NCBI RefSeq assembly: GCF_003634825.1
Contig: NZ_RBXD01000001.1
Span: 2,130,501 to 2,194,500 of the forward strand
Source: Flavobacterium sp. 123
GTDB lineage: Bacteria > Bacteroidota > Bacteroidia > Flavobacteriales > Flavobacteriaceae
Direction: 5' to 3'
DNA length: 64,000 nt
Positions 52,229 through 58,933 of this stretch are shown here, piece by piece (position 1 is the first letter of the stretch; each line of letters begins with the position of its first letter). The notes beneath the pieces are model-generated. The model saw only the letters and a list, made by a program, of their open reading frames with translations, was not told the DNA's origin and did not search any database. The translations under genes and the position numbers were made by a program.

Positions 52229-52359
52229 GACTAACGTTCTCGCGCTACAAACAGTTTGGGATTAAGGAAGCGTTATCTTTCGGATTTGCCAATTCTTCCA
52301 AATACAAACCAATTTTCCATTAAGCCTAATGCCCAAATTGCTTGTAGCGTGTGTTAGGC
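52229..52359 (+). repeat. Integron attC-like imperfect palindrome
   Basis: A 131-nt non-coding segment starts GACTAAC and ends GTTAGGC (GTTRRRY form). The internal arms pair: CGCTACAAACAGTTTGGG with CCCAAATTGCTTGTAGCG, and beyond that ATTAAGGAAGC with a partner near CATTAAGCC. This is the layout of a folded attC recombination site: inverse-core and core ends, two paired arms, variable central loop, and under 150 nt in length. The left end matches the RYYYAAC consensus at 6 of 7 positions. No integrase lies in the window, so the assignment is tentative. Confidence 0.45.
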
Positions 52360-52366
52360 GATGTTA
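52353..52366 (+). repeat. Left copy of a 14-bp inverted repeat bracketing a small cassette
   Basis: GTTAGGCGATGTTA here and the complement of TAATATCGCCTAAC at 52934-52947 match at 13 of 14 positions in opposite orientation. Between them lie the two small membrane-protein genes. This copy overlaps the right end of the attC-like palindrome. Confidence 0.5.
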
Positions 52367-52425
52367 TTTCTTTGAATTAATTTTAAATTTTGTCTATTGA
52401 TAGATTGCCTCAAATCAATAATTCA

Positions 52426-52933: not shown

Positions 52934-52947
52934 TAATATCGCCTAAC
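52934..52947 (+). repeat. Right copy of the 14-bp inverted repeat
   Basis: TAATATCGCCTAAC is the inverted partner of 52353-52366 (13/14). Together they enclose about 580 bp containing the two small membrane-protein genes. Confidence 0.5.
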
Positions 52948-53038
52948 TAGTATATATCTTCTTAACGCCTGTAAGGAGTTGTATTTATTGGTACTCTTTA
53001 ATTTTTAAAACCCTCTAGTACAACATAAGTACAACAAA

Positions 53039-53530
53039 TCAGAATACTTTTATTTGACTATAGATCCCAATACTATTAAGCTGTGCTTGGCGGTTCATCG
53101 CTTGATACTCTGCTAGCTTACCACAATAATATTGTTGGGTTGCTTTAGCATACCCATTTTGTAAAAGTAATTCATTTAAACATAATCCACTAGGCAAAAT
53201 TACATACCCTAATTGTCTGTTCCAGTAGTCGTAATAGTTCTCCTGTTCTGTAATGATAGTTACAACCGTTTTAGGCGGTGCAACCGACAAAACGAAGTGC
53301 AAGGATTGCAAACCAAATTGGAGCAATAATTGGGCTGGTAAACTGCTTTTCTCTTCATCCTCTTTCATCTTTCTGTTAATCTTTACTTCTGGTGCATCCA
53401 AGCCATAAAGACGGATTTCTTTTTTCATTTGAGTGAAACGATTGCAAATGATTATGCTATCTCCGTCAAGGACTTCTTCAATTTGCCAATGGGTTTCCAC
53501 TATGTACGGTGCTTTTGCGTTGTATTGCAT
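53039..53530 (-). CDS. Thermonuclease (SNase)-like protein
   Basis: A 163-aa staphylococcal nuclease-fold protein without a signal peptide. The start at 53530 was chosen because a TTG at 53563 overlaps a -7 promoter box. VLDGDSIII (about 20-28) and IRLYGLDAPEVK (about 41-52) hold the first acidic and basic active-site residues. DYWNRQLGYVILPSGLCLNE and LQNGYAKA match the remaining motifs; the second catalytic Arg sits in NRQLGYV. It should hydrolyse DNA or RNA. The lack of a secretion signal and the neighbouring phage-like genes suggest an accessory role inside the module. Confidence 0.8.
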   Translation of the reverse strand: MQYNAKAPYIVETHWQIEEVLDGDSIIICNRFTQMKKEIRLYGLDAPEVKINRKMKEDEEKSSLPAQLLLQFGLQSLHFVLSVAPPKTVVTIITEQENYYDYWNRQLGYVILPSGLCLNELLLQNGYAKATQQYYCGKLAEYQAMNRQAQLNSIGIYSQIKVF

Positions 53531-53560
53531 TGATTTACAGTATTTTAAGTTATTGATAAT

Positions 53561-53568
53561 CAAAGATA
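53561..53568 (-). promoter_or_regulatory. -7 promoter element before the SNase gene
   Basis: The minus strand reads TATCTTTG, matching TAnnTTTG, about 30 nt upstream of the ATG. It supports the 53530 start. No -33 TTG was found at the usual distance. Confidence 0.45.
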
Positions 53569-53627: not shown

Positions 53628-54431
53628 ATGGCAAGACAGAAAGGTGTTATCAAGTATGTTGGAACTCTTGGAGATATCCGACATTTTAAAATTAAAGGTC
53701 AAGAAGGCTACTTTGCCGGAATGGTTGGTGGTCCAACTGGTGACCAAGTACTCTCAGCTCCAGAGTTCGAAAGAACTCGTGAGAATATGAATGAATTTGG
53801 CGCTTGTGCCAAAGCAGGAAAATCAGTTCGAACTGGTTTATCTCAAGTGATGAAACAAATGGCCGACAGCCAAGTAACTGGAAGATTGACTTCTATTATG
53901 AAGAAAATCAACCTTGAAGACCAAACGGAAGCCAGAGGTTACCGTAAAATTGAAATCACAACACAAAGAAATTACTTAAAAGGTTTTGAGTTTGACAAAA
54001 ACTCTTCTTTCAATGGTATTTTCAATGCTCCTTACTCATTAACTCATACGGTTGATAGAGAAAGTGGCGAATTTGTAGTTCCTGATTTTAATCCAGCGAA
54101 TTTGGTTAATGCTCCATCTGGTGCAACTCACTTTCGTTTGATTAGTTCTCTTTCAGTAGTGAGTGATTTTGAATACAACGCTACCACTAACAGCTATGAT
54201 CCTATGGATGCAGCATTGAATGAGGTAAACGATATTCAATATAGTCCTTTCTTGGATTTGTACGCTCCAGTTCCTGCCACTACAATTACTGCAACTTTAC
54301 CTGGTGGAGTTCTACCAACGGTAAACACCACAGTTTTGCAGTGTATTGGAATTGAGTTCTACCAACAAGTGGGACCAAATTACTACTTGTTCTCCAGTGG
54401 TAATTGCTTGAAAGTTGAGGATGCTTTTTAG
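53628..54431 (+). CDS. Conserved hypothetical protein of a phage-like cassette
   Basis: A 267-aa soluble protein with no signal peptide or membrane helix. The start MARQKGVIKYVGTLGDIRHF (ATG 53628) is well placed after an A-rich leader. The N-terminal half has a charged, helical segment (about 35-110, with FERTRENMNEFGACAKAGK). The C-terminal half is beta-rich and ends in VGPNYYLFSSGNCLKVEDAF. I cannot assign a family; its first lines have a loose resemblance to DUF6266-type proteins of Bacteroidota. It forms a divergent pair with the SNase gene and precedes DUF5675 and two holin-sized proteins. Base composition is more even than in the core genes. Confidence 0.65.
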   Translation: MARQKGVIKYVGTLGDIRHFKIKGQEGYFAGMVGGPTGDQVLSAPEFERTRENMNEFGACAKAGKSVRTGLSQVMKQMADSQVTGRLTSIMKKINLEDQTEARGYRKIEITTQRNYLKGFEFDKNSSFNGIFNAPYSLTHTVDRESGEFVVPDFNPANLVNAPSGATHFRLISSLSVVSDFEYNATTNSYDPMDAALNEVNDIQYSPFLDLYAPVPATTITATLPGGVLPTVNTTVLQCIGIEFYQQVGPNYYLFSSGNCLKVEDAF

Positions 54432-54499: not shown

Positions 54500-54952
54500 A
54501 TGGAAAGCAAAATAATAAGAGTAGCCCAGGGCAAAGAAAGCACATTGAGCCAGCTATACATTAACGGAATATTTTAATGCTATTTGTTAGAGGATAAAAT
54601 TAGAGAAGTAAAAATAGCTTCTCAAACTGCCATTCCAAAAGGTGTTTTTAATTTGAAGTTGAACACTCACGGAGCTAAAAATGTGGATTACAAAAAAGCA
54701 TTTGGAAAGCTTCACGAAGGAATGATTGAAATTACTGGTTTGCCAAATTTCAGCTTTGTTTATATCCATACCGGAAATACTATCAAAGAAACTGCCGGGT
54801 GTCCGCTTTGTGGTTTTGGTTTCCAATTCGTTGATGGCAATTTTCAAGTTACTCAAAGTGTTGCAGCTTACAAAATGATTTATCCAAAATTAGTAGCACT
54901 GGCAAAAGTTGAAAACAATGTAATAACTATTGAAAATAATTTTCAATTCTAA
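54500..54952 (+). pseudogene. DUF5675 family gene interrupted by an in-frame TAA
   Basis: From ATG 54500 the frame reads 25 codons with the start of a DUF5675 domain (KESTLSQLYINGIF), then TAA at 54575-54577. The same frame goes on without further stops (CYLLEDKIREVKI, then HTGNTIKETAGCPLCGFGF) to 54952. The two parts join as one normal-length domain of about 150 aa. A downstream start at TTG 54584 would give a protein lacking its first strands. DUF5675 proteins sit in phage and prophage clusters and resemble lysis- or tail-associated modules. Readthrough, reinitiation, sequencing error and decay are all possible. Confidence 0.7.
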
Positions 54953-54964
54953 AAAGGCCAAAAA

Positions 54965-55228
54965 ATGGAAAACATCAACATCATCGCCACACTTTTTGGA
55001 ACGTTAATCACCTTGTTACTCTCGATTGTGGCTTATTTTATCAAGCAATTACACACTGATTTCAAGAGTATGGAGAAAGATTTGATTGAAGTAAAAACGA
55101 TGGCTTTAATCATCAAAACCGAGTTCAAAAGTGGCAACGATTTATTGAACCAGAAAGTAGAATACATCGAAAAAAGAGTATACAATTTAGAATTATCAAT
55201 TTTTAAAAATCCAGATTATGAAAAATAA
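54965..55228 (+). CDS. Holin-like single-span membrane protein with coiled coil
   Basis: An 87-aa protein. One N-terminal transmembrane helix (about 6-25) is followed by a charged coiled-coil region (about 30-80: DFKSMEKDLIEVKTMALI, NQKVEYIEKRVYNLEL). This is the layout of small phage membrane proteins such as the BhlA/XhlA type haemolysin/holin group. The gene overlaps the next one by 11 nt. The DUF5675 gene lies 12 nt upstream. Confidence 0.6.
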   Translation: MENINIIATLFGTLITLLLSIVAYFIKQLHTDFKSMEKDLIEVKTMALIIKTEFKSGNDLLNQKVEYIEKRVYNLELSIFKNPDYEK

Positions 55229-55460
55229 CAAAATGAATTTAGTAGAAAGAACCTTGGCGCCAACTCCAAAATGGTTTAAAATTTTGAGAACTGTTGGAAT
55301 TGCTTTGGCTTCCGTTGGTGGAATTATCATCGCTTCGCCTATTGCCTTACCTGTTGGATTGGTTTCGGCTGCTGGTTACTTGGTTCTGGGTGGTAGTATT
55401 ATTTCAGTAGTTTCTCAAACTGCTGTAAAATCGGAAGAAGAACCTAAAGCAAACCCTTAA
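55218..55460 (+). CDS. Holin-like two-helix membrane protein
   Basis: An 80-aa protein with a short amphipathic N-terminus (WFKILR) and two glycine-rich transmembrane helices (about 24-44 and 48-66), then a polar tail (KSEEEPKANP). No family is recognised. Its size and helix pair resemble phage holins. It overlaps the preceding gene by 11 nt and is followed by a terminator, so these two small genes and DUF5675 end one operon. Confidence 0.6.
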   Translation: MKNNKMNLVERTLAPTPKWFKILRTVGIALASVGGIIIASPIALPVGLVSAAGYLVLGGSIISVVSQTAVKSEEEPKANP

Positions 55461-55645: not shown

Positions 55646-56068
55646 TTATTTTCTACAATAACGGTATAAAATGGCTCTACGAATGTCATTTATGAGCATC
55701 ATATCCTCTTTGTACTGTTTTTCTTTTTTCTCCAAAAGTTTGAGAGGTGCAACATTTTTTTGGTGCTGCTCGTGTTCCACGATCATTAAACTGGCTTGTG
55801 GATTGAATTGTTTTTTGAAATCTGGAAGACGCAAAAACGAAATAACAGAACCTACTAAATACTGATGCCAGAATTTTGTTTGCCATAAACTATAAGCAAT
55901 GAAAAAAAGGCTTTCGCAGTCCTCTTCATTTGAAAAAATGATTACAAAGCTGTTAGTAAATGGCGTTTTTTGTGGCTTTCCGCTGTTCATCCCCTTGTTA
56001 AGTATGAATAAATGGGGTTTTGTGTAAACGGTGTCTTTTCGGTGGGTCTTGATGATGAAATTTAGCAT
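55646..56068 (-). CDS. DUF6943-like protein of mobile elements
   Basis: A 140-aa soluble protein. It starts MLNFIIKTHRKDTVYTKPHL and contains FILNKGMNSGKPQKTPFTNS, AYSLWQTKFWHQYLVGSVIS and FLRLPDFKKQF. Combined with a basic, Glu/Lys-rich C-terminus (about 105-140), this resembles DUF6943 proteins from conjugative and integrative elements of Bacteroidota. The identity is recalled from pattern, not searched. It reads away from the hairpin-rich field on its right, which is its upstream region. Confidence 0.62.
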   Translation of the reverse strand: MLNFIIKTHRKDTVYTKPHLFILNKGMNSGKPQKTPFTNSFVIIFSNEEDCESLFFIAYSLWQTKFWHQYLVGSVISFLRLPDFKKQFNPQASLMIVEHEQHQKNVAPLKLLEKKEKQYKEDMMLINDIRRAILYRYCRK

Positions 56069-56189
56069 AACATTCGGCTTTAAAAATGGGTTAGATTTTC
56101 AATTTTCCACAGGGTTTCGGTTGAAAGACCAATGTGCTTCGCTACGCTCCGCCCATTAAATTTTTCAAAAGAAAAAAAAGGAAAAAAAA

Positions 56190-56388
56190 GAAAGCCATTC
56201 GTTCAAGTGGAAGGTTTCAAAAAAGCAAGTTTTTTTGATAAAATACTACCCGATACATCATCGGAAGTATGGTCGTGAAGGTTGAACAAAGTGTTGTTGC
56301 GAACCGTTATGGGTGGAGATTTTATCAAAAACCGGAGGCTTGAACTTGCTTTTTTGTAAACCTGGAACTTACCTTTGCCTTCTTTTTT
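56190..56388. repeat. Long imperfect hairpin 1
   Basis: Two blocks pair across a 60-nt centre. GGTTTCAAAAAAGCAAGT (56213-56230) pairs with ACTTGCTTTTTTGTAAACC (56344-56362). TTTTTGATAAAAT-x-ctaccc (56232-56251) pairs with the segment at 56311-56331. Further A/T-rich pairing continues outward to the edges. The middle (about 56252-56310) carries short GC-richer text without a clear stem. No supported gene overlaps it. Confidence 0.7.
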
Positions 56389-56500
56389 TTATTTTTTGTT
56401 TTGATTTCGTTTACCAATCGTCATAGTATAATCGGAAGGTTTTTGAGGGAAAGGGAGTTGACTTGGAATAGAGTGGTTTTCGGAAAGTGTGTGGATTTTA

Positions 56501-56549
56501 AAAACAGAAAAAAGAAATATCAAATTCATTCCTATTATTTTTCTGTTTT
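56501..56549. repeat. Hairpin 2
   Basis: AAAACAGAAAAA and its complement TTTTTCTGTTTT flank a 24-nt loop. It lies 24 nt before hairpin 3, in a stretch without genes. Confidence 0.6.
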
Positions 56550-56573
56550 GAAAATCAATACTCTTTCTTGGAC

Positions 56574-56663
56574 TTGATTTTGTGGGTATTGAAAATCACT
56601 TTACTGAGTTTTTCAATTTTATAGTACAGGTTTTCAAGTGATTTTCAATACTTACAAAAACAA
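56574..56663. repeat. Hairpin 3
   Basis: The arms 56574-56601 (TTGATTTTGTGGGTATTGAA and eight more bases) and 56636-56663 pair over about 26 of 28 positions around a 34-nt loop. The block TATTGAAAATCACTT is perfectly complemented. The two internal differences would be G.U pairs in plus-strand RNA. It is homologous to hairpin 5. Confidence 0.75.
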
Positions 56664-56695
56664 TGAAAAAATAATACCTAGTGCGATGGGGCAGT

Positions 56696-56900
56696 AGCGC
56701 AGGCAAGTGTGTGGTTTTTTATTTGCTTACTGGGGTGTTTTTGATTGCTTTTGTGGAAAAGTCGATGCCATAGACTTGAAAGAAAGACAATGCTTCGGGC
56801 TGGTCAACTTTATATTTAGGAACGGTATGGCATCGGCTTTTCCGCTGAAGCAATTACTTCGGGTTTTCTGGCAAATAAAAAACCACACTCTTGCTGGCTT
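56696..56900. repeat. Long hairpin 4 (about 200 nt)
   Basis: The arms run at about 56699-56770 and 56826-56900 with a 55-nt loop. The outer block GTGTGGTTTTTTATTTGC is perfectly complementary (18 bp). An internal loop of 16-17 nt follows, then an inner block GGAAAAGYCGATGCCATA. ORFs that cross it are by-products of the paired arms. Several mismatches are G.U in plus-strand RNA. Confidence 0.75.
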
Positions 56901-56903
56901 CTA

Positions 56904-56994
56904 TTGATTTTGTGGGTGTTGCAAATTGCTTATTCCTATGTCGTGAATGTTAGAAATGGAGTTGATAAGCGGTTTGCAATACGCACAAAAACAA
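56904..56994. repeat. Hairpin 5, homologous to hairpin 3
   Basis: The arms 56904-56932 and 56967-56994 share with hairpin 3 the outer text TTGATTTTGTGGG and the final ACAAAAACAA. They differ in the middle (TGTTGCAAATTGCTTA against TATTGAAAATCACTT) while still pairing. Three differences between the arms are G.U pairs in plus-strand RNA. Confidence 0.75.
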
Positions 56995-57220
56995 TGCAAA
57001 TACTTACCGATTTAAACACAAAGTTGCTAAAAACAGGTTACGTAAACGTTCTTGAAAGCAATGATAACCGTAAAGTTTCCTTTGAAATTGCGAAGGTTCT
57101 TAAAGACAGTGGCGAAGGGCAGCATTTTTTATTGCAGGCCGGTGCGAGGAAGCAATTAAAAATGTTGTCCTGGAGCCACTGGCAAGCGCGTTGGGTGTGG
57201 CGGCTGTTTTACATAAATGA
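56994..57220 (+). pseudogene. Short composite ORF joined by a -1 slippery site
   Basis: ATG 56994 opens 45 codons (start MQILTDLNTKLLKTGYVNVL) up to CAT-TTT-TTA at 57123-57131. The heptamer T TTT TTA is a classical -1 slippery sequence. In the -1 frame the protein-like text FIAGRCEEAIKNVVLEPLAS continues to TGA at 57218-57220, giving about 75 aa in total. The zero frame instead runs on into the Fic gene with low-complexity text. It may be a programmed frameshift, a decayed fragment or a homopolymer error. No family is recognised. Confidence 0.45.
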
Positions 57221-57307
57221 TATTATAGCTTCATTGCAAAAACCAAAAAAACAATATAAAAGCTTTGTAATGAACTATAATACTCAATTATGTAACACAG
57301 CTTGGGG

Positions 57308-57377
57308 AAAAAAATTACTGGCGCGAGTCACGCAGTGTACGTGTTTTTGTTCAAAAACCGTGACAGTAATTTTTTTT
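57308..57377. repeat. Hairpin 6
   Basis: AAAAAAATTACT pairs with AGTAATTTTTTT, and inside it GTCACG (57327-57332) pairs with CGTGAC (57359-57364), with a 7-nt bulge. Another small hairpin, TTGGCA...TGCCAA, follows at 57384-57401. Confidence 0.65.
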
Positions 57378-57448
57378 GGAGCGTTGGCAAAGGAGTGCCA
57401 ATCGAAGGGTAAAATGCCTTTCTTTATTATTTGGGTTTTGTTTGGCTT

Positions 57449-58933
57449 TTATTGCAATGGAATTATTTTCAGTTTTGCTTCTTCGTGTTCTTTGAAGGCA
57501 TTGCTTAGTGTTAAATGATTTTCTAATGCTTGCATATCGCTTGCTAGGAGTGAAGCACTGAATTCTTGTGCTCTTTGCAACATTCTGATATAGGCCGCCG
57601 GATCATAGTTTCTTGTTAGTCTTCTTAATGCTCCTAAATAGTCATCGCGATACACTGTTGGAATTATGATTCGAGTTTGGTTTGCTTTTACTAATTCGGC
57701 ATTCATCATTACTCTTGCAATTCTTCCATTTCCATCCAAGAATGGATGTATTTCGCTTATCATAAACATAATATATGCTGCTTTTGCGAATGGTTCTTGC
57801 AGTGCTTGGTAGTAATCAAATCCTTTTATTATTGTTCCTCTAACTAAGGTATGGTCAACAAAATGTGTTTCGCCTGCCCGGTTGTTTTTGTCTTTGAATT
57901 GCCCTGGTTTTTTTGAGGTTCTTGCTCCTAAAAGTATTTGATGCCTGTATTGTAGTATGTTCAGTAATTCATCGGGATTTGAAGGTGTTGTACTCATTTC
58001 CGTTTGATTACTAACTAATCTGTAGGTTCCTAATATGTCGTGTGAATCTTCATCTCGATTTGGAATTGGTGTTTCGGTTTGAATGATGCTTTTGGCTTCT
58101 TCTATTTCGAAAATAGTTCCTTCGATATAGTTTGAAAAATAGGCTTCAAAGAAGGCGAAATTTCGAAAGGCATTGGTTTCTTTATTCCTATCTTGACTTT
58201 CTTTATAAGGTTGCTGTTGCAGTTCTACAAACAGTTTTTCGAATAATTCTAAACGGTGTTTGTCGTAAGGGTTTCCTAAAGCTCTGGCTACTGCCAATGG
58301 CGATGTGAGTATTTTGGAAGGTTTTGTAGTGAGTAAGGCACTGATTAGTTTGTTGAGTTTGTCAAATTCGGTTTGCATTCCTAATTTGTTGGCAATTTCT
58401 CTTGCTTTGTCCCGAAATTGGTTTAGTCCTTCTTCTCCTTTTACTTGTACTATTTGTTCTAATTTATTTTCGATTTCCGGGAGGGTAATCGTTTTGGATG
58501 TTGGTCCAATTTGGCGAGAAGATTGTAGGTTTTCTAAAAAAGCTCTTTCTTGTTGTGCTACAAATAATTCTCCCGAAAAGGGATTGTCTCCTTCTATTGC
58601 CGGTAGTCCTTCCATAAAGCGGATGGTTATTCCTGGCAGTTCAATTTTCTTGGTATATGTATAAGTTACAAATATTTGATTTGCTGTTGTTGGTTTGAAT
58701 TCTAAGGCGGAACGGTGACTTAATACTGCACCTGGATACAGTTTTCCAAGAATGGTAAAAATATTTCTTCTAATAATAATCTCTTCTGATTCATTTAAAT
58801 TTGAAGTATAGATACGAGGAGCAATTTTTTTTATTTGCCCTGTTTCTTCCAGTTTTCCTAATTGTCTGCTTATTGCTGTATCGCTTGAAGCAAAAATTAC
58901 TTCCTGAAGGTGAATTGGGATGTTATTTTCCAT
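57449..58933 (-). CDS. Fic family AMP-transferase with N-terminal AbiEi-antitoxin-like region
   Basis: A 494-aa protein. Residues 5-40 form a winged-helix-like unit (DTAISRQLGKLEETGQIKKI). Residues 41-138 read like the AbiEi antitoxin domain (APRIYTS, GKLYPGAVLSHRSALEF, and ELFVAQQERAFLENL). The Fic domain holds the inhibitory motif SNYIEG (267-272, class II form S/TxxxEG) and the catalytic motif HPFLDGNGRIAR (His396 to Arg407). It should transfer AMP from ATP to a protein target, with the inhibitory helix restraining activity. Upstream (58926-59117) lies a six-copy operator-like array, suggesting autorepression by the N-terminal unit. Confidence 0.88.
   Translation of the reverse strand: MENNIPIHLQEVIFASSDTAISRQLGKLEETGQIKKIAPRIYTSNLNESEEIIIRRNIFTILGKLYPGAVLSHRSALEFKPTTANQIFVTYTYTKKIELPGITIRFMEGLPAIEGDNPFSGELFVAQQERAFLENLQSSRQIGPTSKTITLPEIENKLEQIVQVKGEEGLNQFRDKAREIANKLGMQTEFDKLNKLISALLTTKPSKILTSPLAVARALGNPYDKHRLELFEKLFVELQQQPYKESQDRNKETNAFRNFAFFEAYFSNYIEGTIFEIEEAKSIIQTETPIPNRDEDSHDILGTYRLVSNQTEMSTTPSNPDELLNILQYRHQILLGARTSKKPGQFKDKNNRAGETHFVDHTLVRGTIIKGFDYYQALQEPFAKAAYIMFMISEIHPFLDGNGRIARVMMNAELVKANQTRIIIPTVYRDDYLGALRRLTRNYDPAAYIRMLQRAQEFSASLLASDMQALENHLTLSNAFKEHEEAKLKIIPLQ

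Follow-up and report, generated by a model that had tools for sequence, protein, structure and literature searches.

A hairpin field of about 1.2 kb at one end of integrative elements in Flavobacterium and other Bacteroidota is probably a large structured noncoding RNA

What is encoded by more than a kilobase of consecutive long hairpins that stands between a DUF6943 gene and a Fic-domain gene in Flavobacterium sp. 123? In the window (the whole stretch of 64,000 nucleotides analysed here, on whose scale positions are given), a sequence-only reading had marked this region at 56190-57401 and listed a structured RNA, a conjugative transfer origin, a folded-DNA recombination region, and a regulatory leader as possible roles, among which nothing in the sequence was said to select. 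Covariation and a one-sided excess of G-U pairs now favour the structured RNA, and the other roles listed have become disfavoured. We judge, with a probability of roughly 0.73, that the field is a large noncoding RNA with extensive structure, about 1.2 kb long and encoded on the + strand at the k3/SNase-MARQKG-DUF6943 end of integrative elements in Flavobacterium and other Bacteroidota.

Based on folding, conservation, covariation, and G-U strand bias, the structured field covers 56160-57414 on the + strand, slightly more than was marked at first. It is flanked by the DUF6943 gene (55646-56068, - strand; PF22105, E 6.8e-55) on one side and by the Fic-domain gene (57449-58933, - strand; PF02661, E 1e-14) on the other. 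The arms of its inverted repeats were recovered by a repeat search, and the six or more consecutive repeats noticed earlier became eight successive hairpins, which were folded individually and compared with 200 dinucleotide shuffles each. Seven of them gave z-scores between -4.9 and -8.5 (56214-56360, -4.9; 56481-56569, -5.2; 56573-56664, -6.9; 56742-56856, -7.6; 56903-56996, -7.1; 57105-57183, -6.6; 57200-57304, -8.5), and the weakest (57306-57378) reached -2.4, with 5 of the 200 shuffles folding equally well. When the 64 kb were folded in 200-nt pieces against mononucleotide shuffles, the field was the strongest-folding stretch, with a mean + strand z of -4.2 versus -0.55 elsewhere in the window. 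The top ten runs of twelve successive pieces, ranked by mean + strand z, all overlap the field, which bears out the remark that such hairpin density is rare elsewhere in the window.

Of 40 genomes searched, that of Flavobacterium sp. 123 among them, 17 contain field-like DNA, and two nearly complete copies are present in both G010 and G013. DUF6943 was found, often more than once per genome, in at least 83 of 249 genomes of the genus (Flavobacterium sp. 123 counted). Another search confirmed at least 511 DUF6943-like stretches, 80 of which were retained; the type strain Flavobacterium aquatile LMG 4008 has two DUF6943 loci (L180 and L181). From same-genus genomes, 71 DUF6943 loci were oriented; a larger set of 147 loci stems from overlapping collections, so that its loci are not independent. 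The 3' end of the field was recognized with a regular expression (a T-run, then GAGCG), which fits 39 of the 71 oriented loci. Thirty of these 39 make up alignment A1, from which three loci with long insertions, four near-duplicates, and two loci of a shorter type were left out. RNAalifold, run on 1255 of the 1780 columns of A1, returned one consensus structure through the field with 331 pairs and -389.6 kcal/mol. Within the 9716 cells of these pairs, 7826 are Watson-Crick, 1033 G-U, and 111 A-C, and double Watson-Crick changes were counted in 142 pairs versus a mean of 92 and a maximum of 102 in 200 shuffles. As a precaution against circular reasoning, 15 rows supplied the structure and the remaining 15 were used to score it, in three rounds. 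The hold-out test was passed on all three occasions: 88.7-89.3% of the cells pair versus shuffle means of 82-83%, and 108-127 pairs are changed on both sides versus shuffle means of 66-71 and a maximum of 85. Sliding the partners by one to three columns in this test lowers pairing from 91% to 47-53%, a single column already leaving 49-52%.

A second alignment, A5, comprises 28 of 38 non-redundant 3' domains (from 55), partly of the same loci as A1, ten 242-288-nt forms with an insertion having been left out. Here, 97.7% of the cells are paired, the double-change cells number 53, which none of the 500 shuffles reached (17.4), and the covariation score is 0.210 versus 0.101 (again 0 of 500 as high); of five measures, the number of further pair types failed to exceed the shuffles (14 versus 15.7). 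The covariation over the hairpins that had been proposed as a check is found along the field in A1, in the hold-out test, and in A5, each time against shuffles. Random loss of pairing among homologues and an origin of the arms as remnants of an inverted duplication had been named as outcomes that would count against a role for the hairpins, and neither was observed: the structure is ordered and covaries over 30 loci. Judged by these alignments, the hairpin run is one conserved folded molecule of about 1.2 kb. The field itself is indeed almost gene-free, as had been remarked of the region: the frame 56904-57518, which is open in the window, is broken in all 29 other rows of A1, where at least one stop interrupts every frame, and 55 of the 629 indels in A1 are multiples of three. 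The stops and the indel lengths rule out a coding region. The field hence presents what is expected of an ornate RNA, a long noncoding region with extensive structure supported by covariation.

Read along the + strand, the field begins with H1 (56169-56402), a long rod adjoining DUF6943 that is the sole part kept in some DUF6943 loci. It is followed by H2 (56482-56568; 31 pairs, 22 of which have double Watson-Crick changes), H3 (56574-56664), whose arms are similar to those of H6, the two-part hairpin H5 (56700-56897, formed by 56700-56727 with 56870-56897 and by 56742-56772 with 56826-56856), H6 (56904-56994, delimited by consensus pairs of the 30-row alignment), and H7 (57107-57181), whose outer 7 pairs are 98% Watson-Crick with 6 double changes. 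The most conserved part is H9 (57202-57302; arms TTTACATAA ... TTATGTAA), which together with H10 (57307-57377) forms the covariance model R1 of the 3' domain. H10 exists in two unrelated sequence versions, with stems resembling AAAAAAATTACTGG/CCAGTAATTTTTTT in 20 and GAAAGTTTTTGT/ACAAAAACTTT in 8 of the 28 rows of A5, and the flanks AGCTT and GAGCG are constant across both. The invariant stretches of the 3' domain are located in H9 and in GGAGCG. Support is weak (55-83% Watson-Crick) for H4, H8, and the closing helices (57001-57052 with 57378-57397). The earlier observation that most hairpins carry no T-run stands, as only H10 ends in one, and not at all loci: 8 of the 28 A5 rows bear a ACAAAAACTTTTGGAGCG-type 3' arm in place of the T-run, on which ground H10 was rejected as an intrinsic terminator. 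A row of terminators is ruled out because H10 has this version without a T-run; conserved sequence, moreover, goes on downstream. Past the field, within about 180 nt, an extra conserved hairpin (TTTAG-GAATACTTGGA-CTAAA type, with varying stems) was counted by eye in 20 of the 39 loci (e.g., L021, L022, and L070) and is not present in the window copy; L282 and L033 have a similar sequence ahead of H9 or its remnant instead.

The choice between RNA and DNA, and between the two strands, was approached through the pairs that replace Watson-Crick pairs. In all 39 loci, the + strand has the more stable fold, with a mean advantage of 91 kcal/mol, and the same direction is seen after shuffling (12 shuffles for each of four loci); base composition accounts for part of the advantage. 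As the mononucleotide-shuffle z-scores are close on both strands (-4.2 on +, -3.8 on -), the strand assignment rests on G-U counts. G-U was forbidden while each strand was folded, after which replacements of Watson-Crick pairs were counted, and the same script was applied to same-genus RNase P RNA, tmRNA, and 15 attC-like DNA repeats as controls. Under these conditions, the field shows 324 G-U and 95 A-C on the + strand and 82 G-U and 312 A-C on the - strand. The corresponding G-U:A-C counts are 80:14 for RNase P RNA (antisense 14:87), 73:51 for tmRNA, a weak ratio (antisense 48:69), and 13:13 on both strands for the attC-like repeats, a small control (n=15). With G-U allowed, the field gives 1033:111 (+) and 254:360 (-), the two strands of RNase P RNA 299:27 and 110:86, those of tmRNA 417:39 and 147:70, and in the attC-like control G-U exceeds A-C on both strands (49:14 and 93:16). 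The field is one-sided like the RNAs and unlike the DNA repeats. Covariation together with the strand-specific excess of G-U over A-C makes a structured RNA of the + strand the most likely reading.

The window copy of the field is situated at one end of an integrative element of about 30 kb, delimited as extending from 52945 to about 82924 on the window scale. Its left end is TAACTAGTATATA (52945-52957), where homology between otherwise different loci begins, and its right end is the near-copy TAACTTGTATATA at G000:C1:2213412-2213424 (82912-82924 on the window scale, outside the window). This pair agrees in 12 of 13 bases and is not significant alone (E 2.2); in G060 and G010, a 14-base identical pair stands at the corresponding places. 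A tyrosine integrase (L130:17457-18674; PF00589, PF17293, and PF13102) lies at the right end, so that an integrase occurs together with matching end repeats, which are weak in the window copy alone. The element interior holds a replication gene of the VapE-like/BT4734-like (VapE-like/PrimPol) kind and an HTH_17 gene, and the cargo includes a DpnII-type restriction endonuclease with adenine methylases as well as genes similar to those of SoFic, LmuB, and further defence proteins. No packaging gene was recognised among the element genes scanned, which are part of the gene set. An insertion at dif of the CTX-like kind was dropped as an explanation, the element having its own integrase and end repeats. 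Searches with the flanks for an empty site gave no clean joined-flank pair, the hits common to both flanks being short repeats.

Related elements are similarly organised. The gene k3, encoding a 67-aa protein that by eye is a putative DNA-binding protein, was found in 51 of 71 loci, and 29 of these 51 k3-type loci have, at most 400 nt away from k3, the sequence of a tRNA-Ser 3' end that agrees with the end of the intact tRNA-Ser found in L030. Other k3-type elements start, by eye and among the matches listed, at the apparent ends of other tRNAs. G134 carries two tandem elements, each in the order end, k3, MARQKG, DUF6943, field, 24 or 35 kb, and integrase, the far end of the second being outside the part seen. 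In G148, the same element (L113 and L114, 99.4% identical over 7.1 kb) is found on the main contig (C1) and on a 33-kb second contig (C2), which suggests that it moved recently. Cargo varies from locus to locus; a cluster with a metal P-type ATPase (k9) lies near the field in 12 of 71 loci, and a cluster that is multicopper-oxidase-like by its sequence (k21) in four. Just left of the element in the window, an attC-like repeat (52231-52373) ends in GTTAGGC, as in the integron consensus. Another copy (G000:C1:2436178-2436316) has a candidate integron-type integrase 0.5 kb away (G000:C1:2436823-2437641; TIGR02249, best piece 117 bits, below the cut-off), and many related genomes contain copies as well; repeats and candidate together are probably a chromosomal integron.

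Several genes accompany the field. At the left end of this element type stands an SNase-family nuclease gene (53039-53563, - strand; PF00565, E 1.4e-11), present in 12 of the 71 oriented DUF6943 loci. Next to it is the gene for the 267-aa MARQKG protein (53628-54431, + strand), whose family occurs in 67 of the 71 loci; its model (pLDDT 82.5) consists of a predicted disordered N-terminus, helices, and a beta-sandwich, and a fold search with it gave no clear match. A DUF5675 gene (54584-54952, + strand; PF18925, E 1.9e-16) and two small overlapping genes (54965-55460, + strand) follow, the latter encoding products of 87 and 80 aa that, judged by eye, are probably membrane proteins. The cluster k0, in which the 80-aa family is merged with a 120-140-aa family, was present in 64 of 71 loci. 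DUF6943 itself, encoded divergently from the field, is predicted to fold like the target-recognition domain of type I restriction enzymes and may be a stand-alone half specificity subunit; compared with the target-recognition domains of HsdS, it consists of one short domain and one long helix. Its model gave no match with E below 0.001 in the Foldseek viral library, and no mention of DUF6943 was found in the literature searched. Relatives of DUF6943 occur in 27 IMG/VR contigs, and in one of the cases scanned (L257), the gene lies beside a tape-measure gene.

The reach of the 3' domain was followed with R1, whose E-values are rough. It was found in 81 of 248 same-genus genomes, named type strains among them, and in 12 of 340 genomes of a phylum-wide sample, five of which are outside the genus. 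Among the matches listed, 71 of the 85 with at least 100 bits have a DUF6943 match no more than 3 kb away, and six of the remaining 14 are at contig ends. Conversely, only 71 of the 146 DUF6943 places (those among the matches listed, with the weakest rows excluded) have an R1 of at least 100 bits within 3 kb, and some DUF6943 loci hold H1 only, or neither H1 nor R1. Since about half of the DUF6943 places are without a strong R1 and some loci retain only H1, the field is modular, and some elements can do without it. R1 was also scanned for in 19 of the 27 IMG/VR contigs with DUF6943 relatives and in seven distant genome loci. Three of the 19 contigs, which are not necessarily phage, carry it (L243, L245, and L248), 0.8-1 kb from DUF6943 proteins that are 39-43% identical and on the opposite strand, as in the window. 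In L154 and L153, it is farther from DUF6943 (2 and 4 kb), and it is absent from the other 16 contigs and five distant loci scanned. L245 retains MARQKG and SNase in the same order, and a U-A pair of H9 that is invariant in A5 (columns 11/98) is swapped there to A-U. The 200-nt pieces between DUF6943 and R1 reach z-scores of -3.9 and -5.8 in L243 and L248, respectively, and fold no better than shuffles in L245 (z -1.1 to 0.5). The field had no match in the phage or plasmid records searched; neither had DUF6943 in the plasmid records nor MARQKG in the phage records.

A second kind of element carries R1 without DUF6943 and has a pair of neighbouring tyrosine recombinases together with a gene that resembles primase genes (6 of 17 loci compared). 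Some of these form tandem arrays, as in G254 with seven R1 matches 7-10 kb apart. In L291 and in both L297 units, R1 is preceded on the same strand by a MARQKG-family gene, again without DUF6943, and a MARQKG profile built without these proteins recovers them with E 1.4e-105 and 1.9e-64. From these loci, MARQKG may be the more faithful partner of R1 than DUF6943. In L282, L293, and L297, a unit of 8-9 kb is repeated in tandem; it combines a tyrosine recombinase pair and a primase-like gene with a hairpin of the R1 type. Each unit of L282 ends in a tail cassette whose sequence resembles RHS.

The second kind of element bears on the reading of the field as a folded single-stranded DNA site, in which the + strand would take up its fold in the single-stranded state of the element and act in recombination, as an origin, or in packaging. 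The field does lie in an integrative element, R1 stands beside paired tyrosine recombinases in the tandem arrays, and the order of H9 and part of the 3' extension differs between loci. H9, an imperfect palindrome with an unpaired centre, has the shape of an attC or dif site, and an attC-like repeat lies nearby (52231-52373). However, integron attC sites carry R boxes at the stem base (RYYYAAC / GTTRRRY), and this consensus is not in H9, where A5 reads TTTTACAT / ATGTAA(C/A). The element's own end repeats are elsewhere, and sites for recombination, origin, or packaging need far less than 1.2 kb of ordered hairpins. The field also differs from attC in its asymmetry of G-U versus A-C between strands, which it shares with the RNAs, the attC-like control being symmetric without G-U. 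Given the small size of this control and the tolerance of folded DNA for some G-T pairs, the strand test weighs moderately against single-stranded DNA, and we consider such a site unlikely.

Far less probable is a cis-regulatory leader or 3' UTR for DUF6943 or the cargo genes. In its favour, the distance between the end of the first H1 motif and the DUF6943 start is 64-224 nt in 143 loci, and H1 is what several distant loci retain. Yet the favoured strand is opposite to that of the divergent DUF6943, and the cargo changes between loci. Furthermore, in 31 of the 39 loci whose 3' end was recognised, the first downstream frame of at least 80 aa is directed at the field, which argues against the leader listed by the sequence-only reading. 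A relic of inverted duplications, or of REP/MITE-like repeats, without a conserved role could account for the related arms of H3 and H6 and for the degraded 3' ends that stand alone in G017, G001, and G002. This reading can hardly be entertained, as it is already contradicted by the covariation of an ordered structure over 30 loci and by the exchange of whole stems in H10.

If the field is a structured RNA, the question arises whether it belongs to a known kind. No Rfam family matched the field. GOLLD, ROOL, and OLE had no hit at the gathering score in the window or in eight further loci, and none of them is among the 26 matches with E of 5 or below for 55900-57600. The sub-threshold matches of this interval, mostly to microRNA families, we take to be chance, and by Rfam covariance-model searches no known RNA family fits. 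Nothing describing the field was found, judged from listings, in the literature on large or structured RNAs of Flavobacterium or Bacteroidetes elements. To our knowledge, few bacterial RNAs longer than 1 kb have conserved structure along their length. In the transcriptome of F. psychrophilum, as far as the excerpted source goes, independent noncoding transcripts are typically short, with a median of 176 bp (PMC9723704). By analogy, the systems closest in kind to the field are GOLLD and ROOL, which excerpts of one account present as large RNAs of phages and prophages, of unknown function, with lengths of over 800 nt and 659 nt, respectively (PMC12286853). Compared with that account, the field is alike in its extent of several hundred nucleotides or more, its many covarying helices, and its carriage by mobile elements, and, as in GOLLD, conservation is higher in its 3' part and its 5' part varies; it differs in being longer, in having no Rfam match, and in being tied to DUF6943 and MARQKG genes (PMC12286853). 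The IIR transcript of PLE phage satellites, described in the part of the source consulted as the most abundant transcript of the element, arises between inverted repeats (PMC7567579). The field, with its putative transcript, resembles it as a large noncoding region in an integrative element (PMC7567579).

We propose that the field would be transcribed on the + strand and that its RNA would act in trans as a scaffold, a partner in an RNP, or a regulator of the element, as may hold for GOLLD and ROOL or the PLE transcript. The co-travelling MARQKG family and DUF6943 would be its probable partners. We hold only tentatively the wider possibility that the field represents a new class of giant ornate RNA, carried by at least two kinds of integrative elements in Bacteroidota and assembling with MARQKG and/or DUF6943 into an RNP or RNA cage for transfer or defence. 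With its 3' domain in 81 of 248 same-genus genomes, in elements with defence-like and metal-resistance cargo, and with its link to two uncharacterised protein families (MARQKG and DUF6943), the field makes the role of giant mobile-element RNAs directly testable in Flavobacterium.
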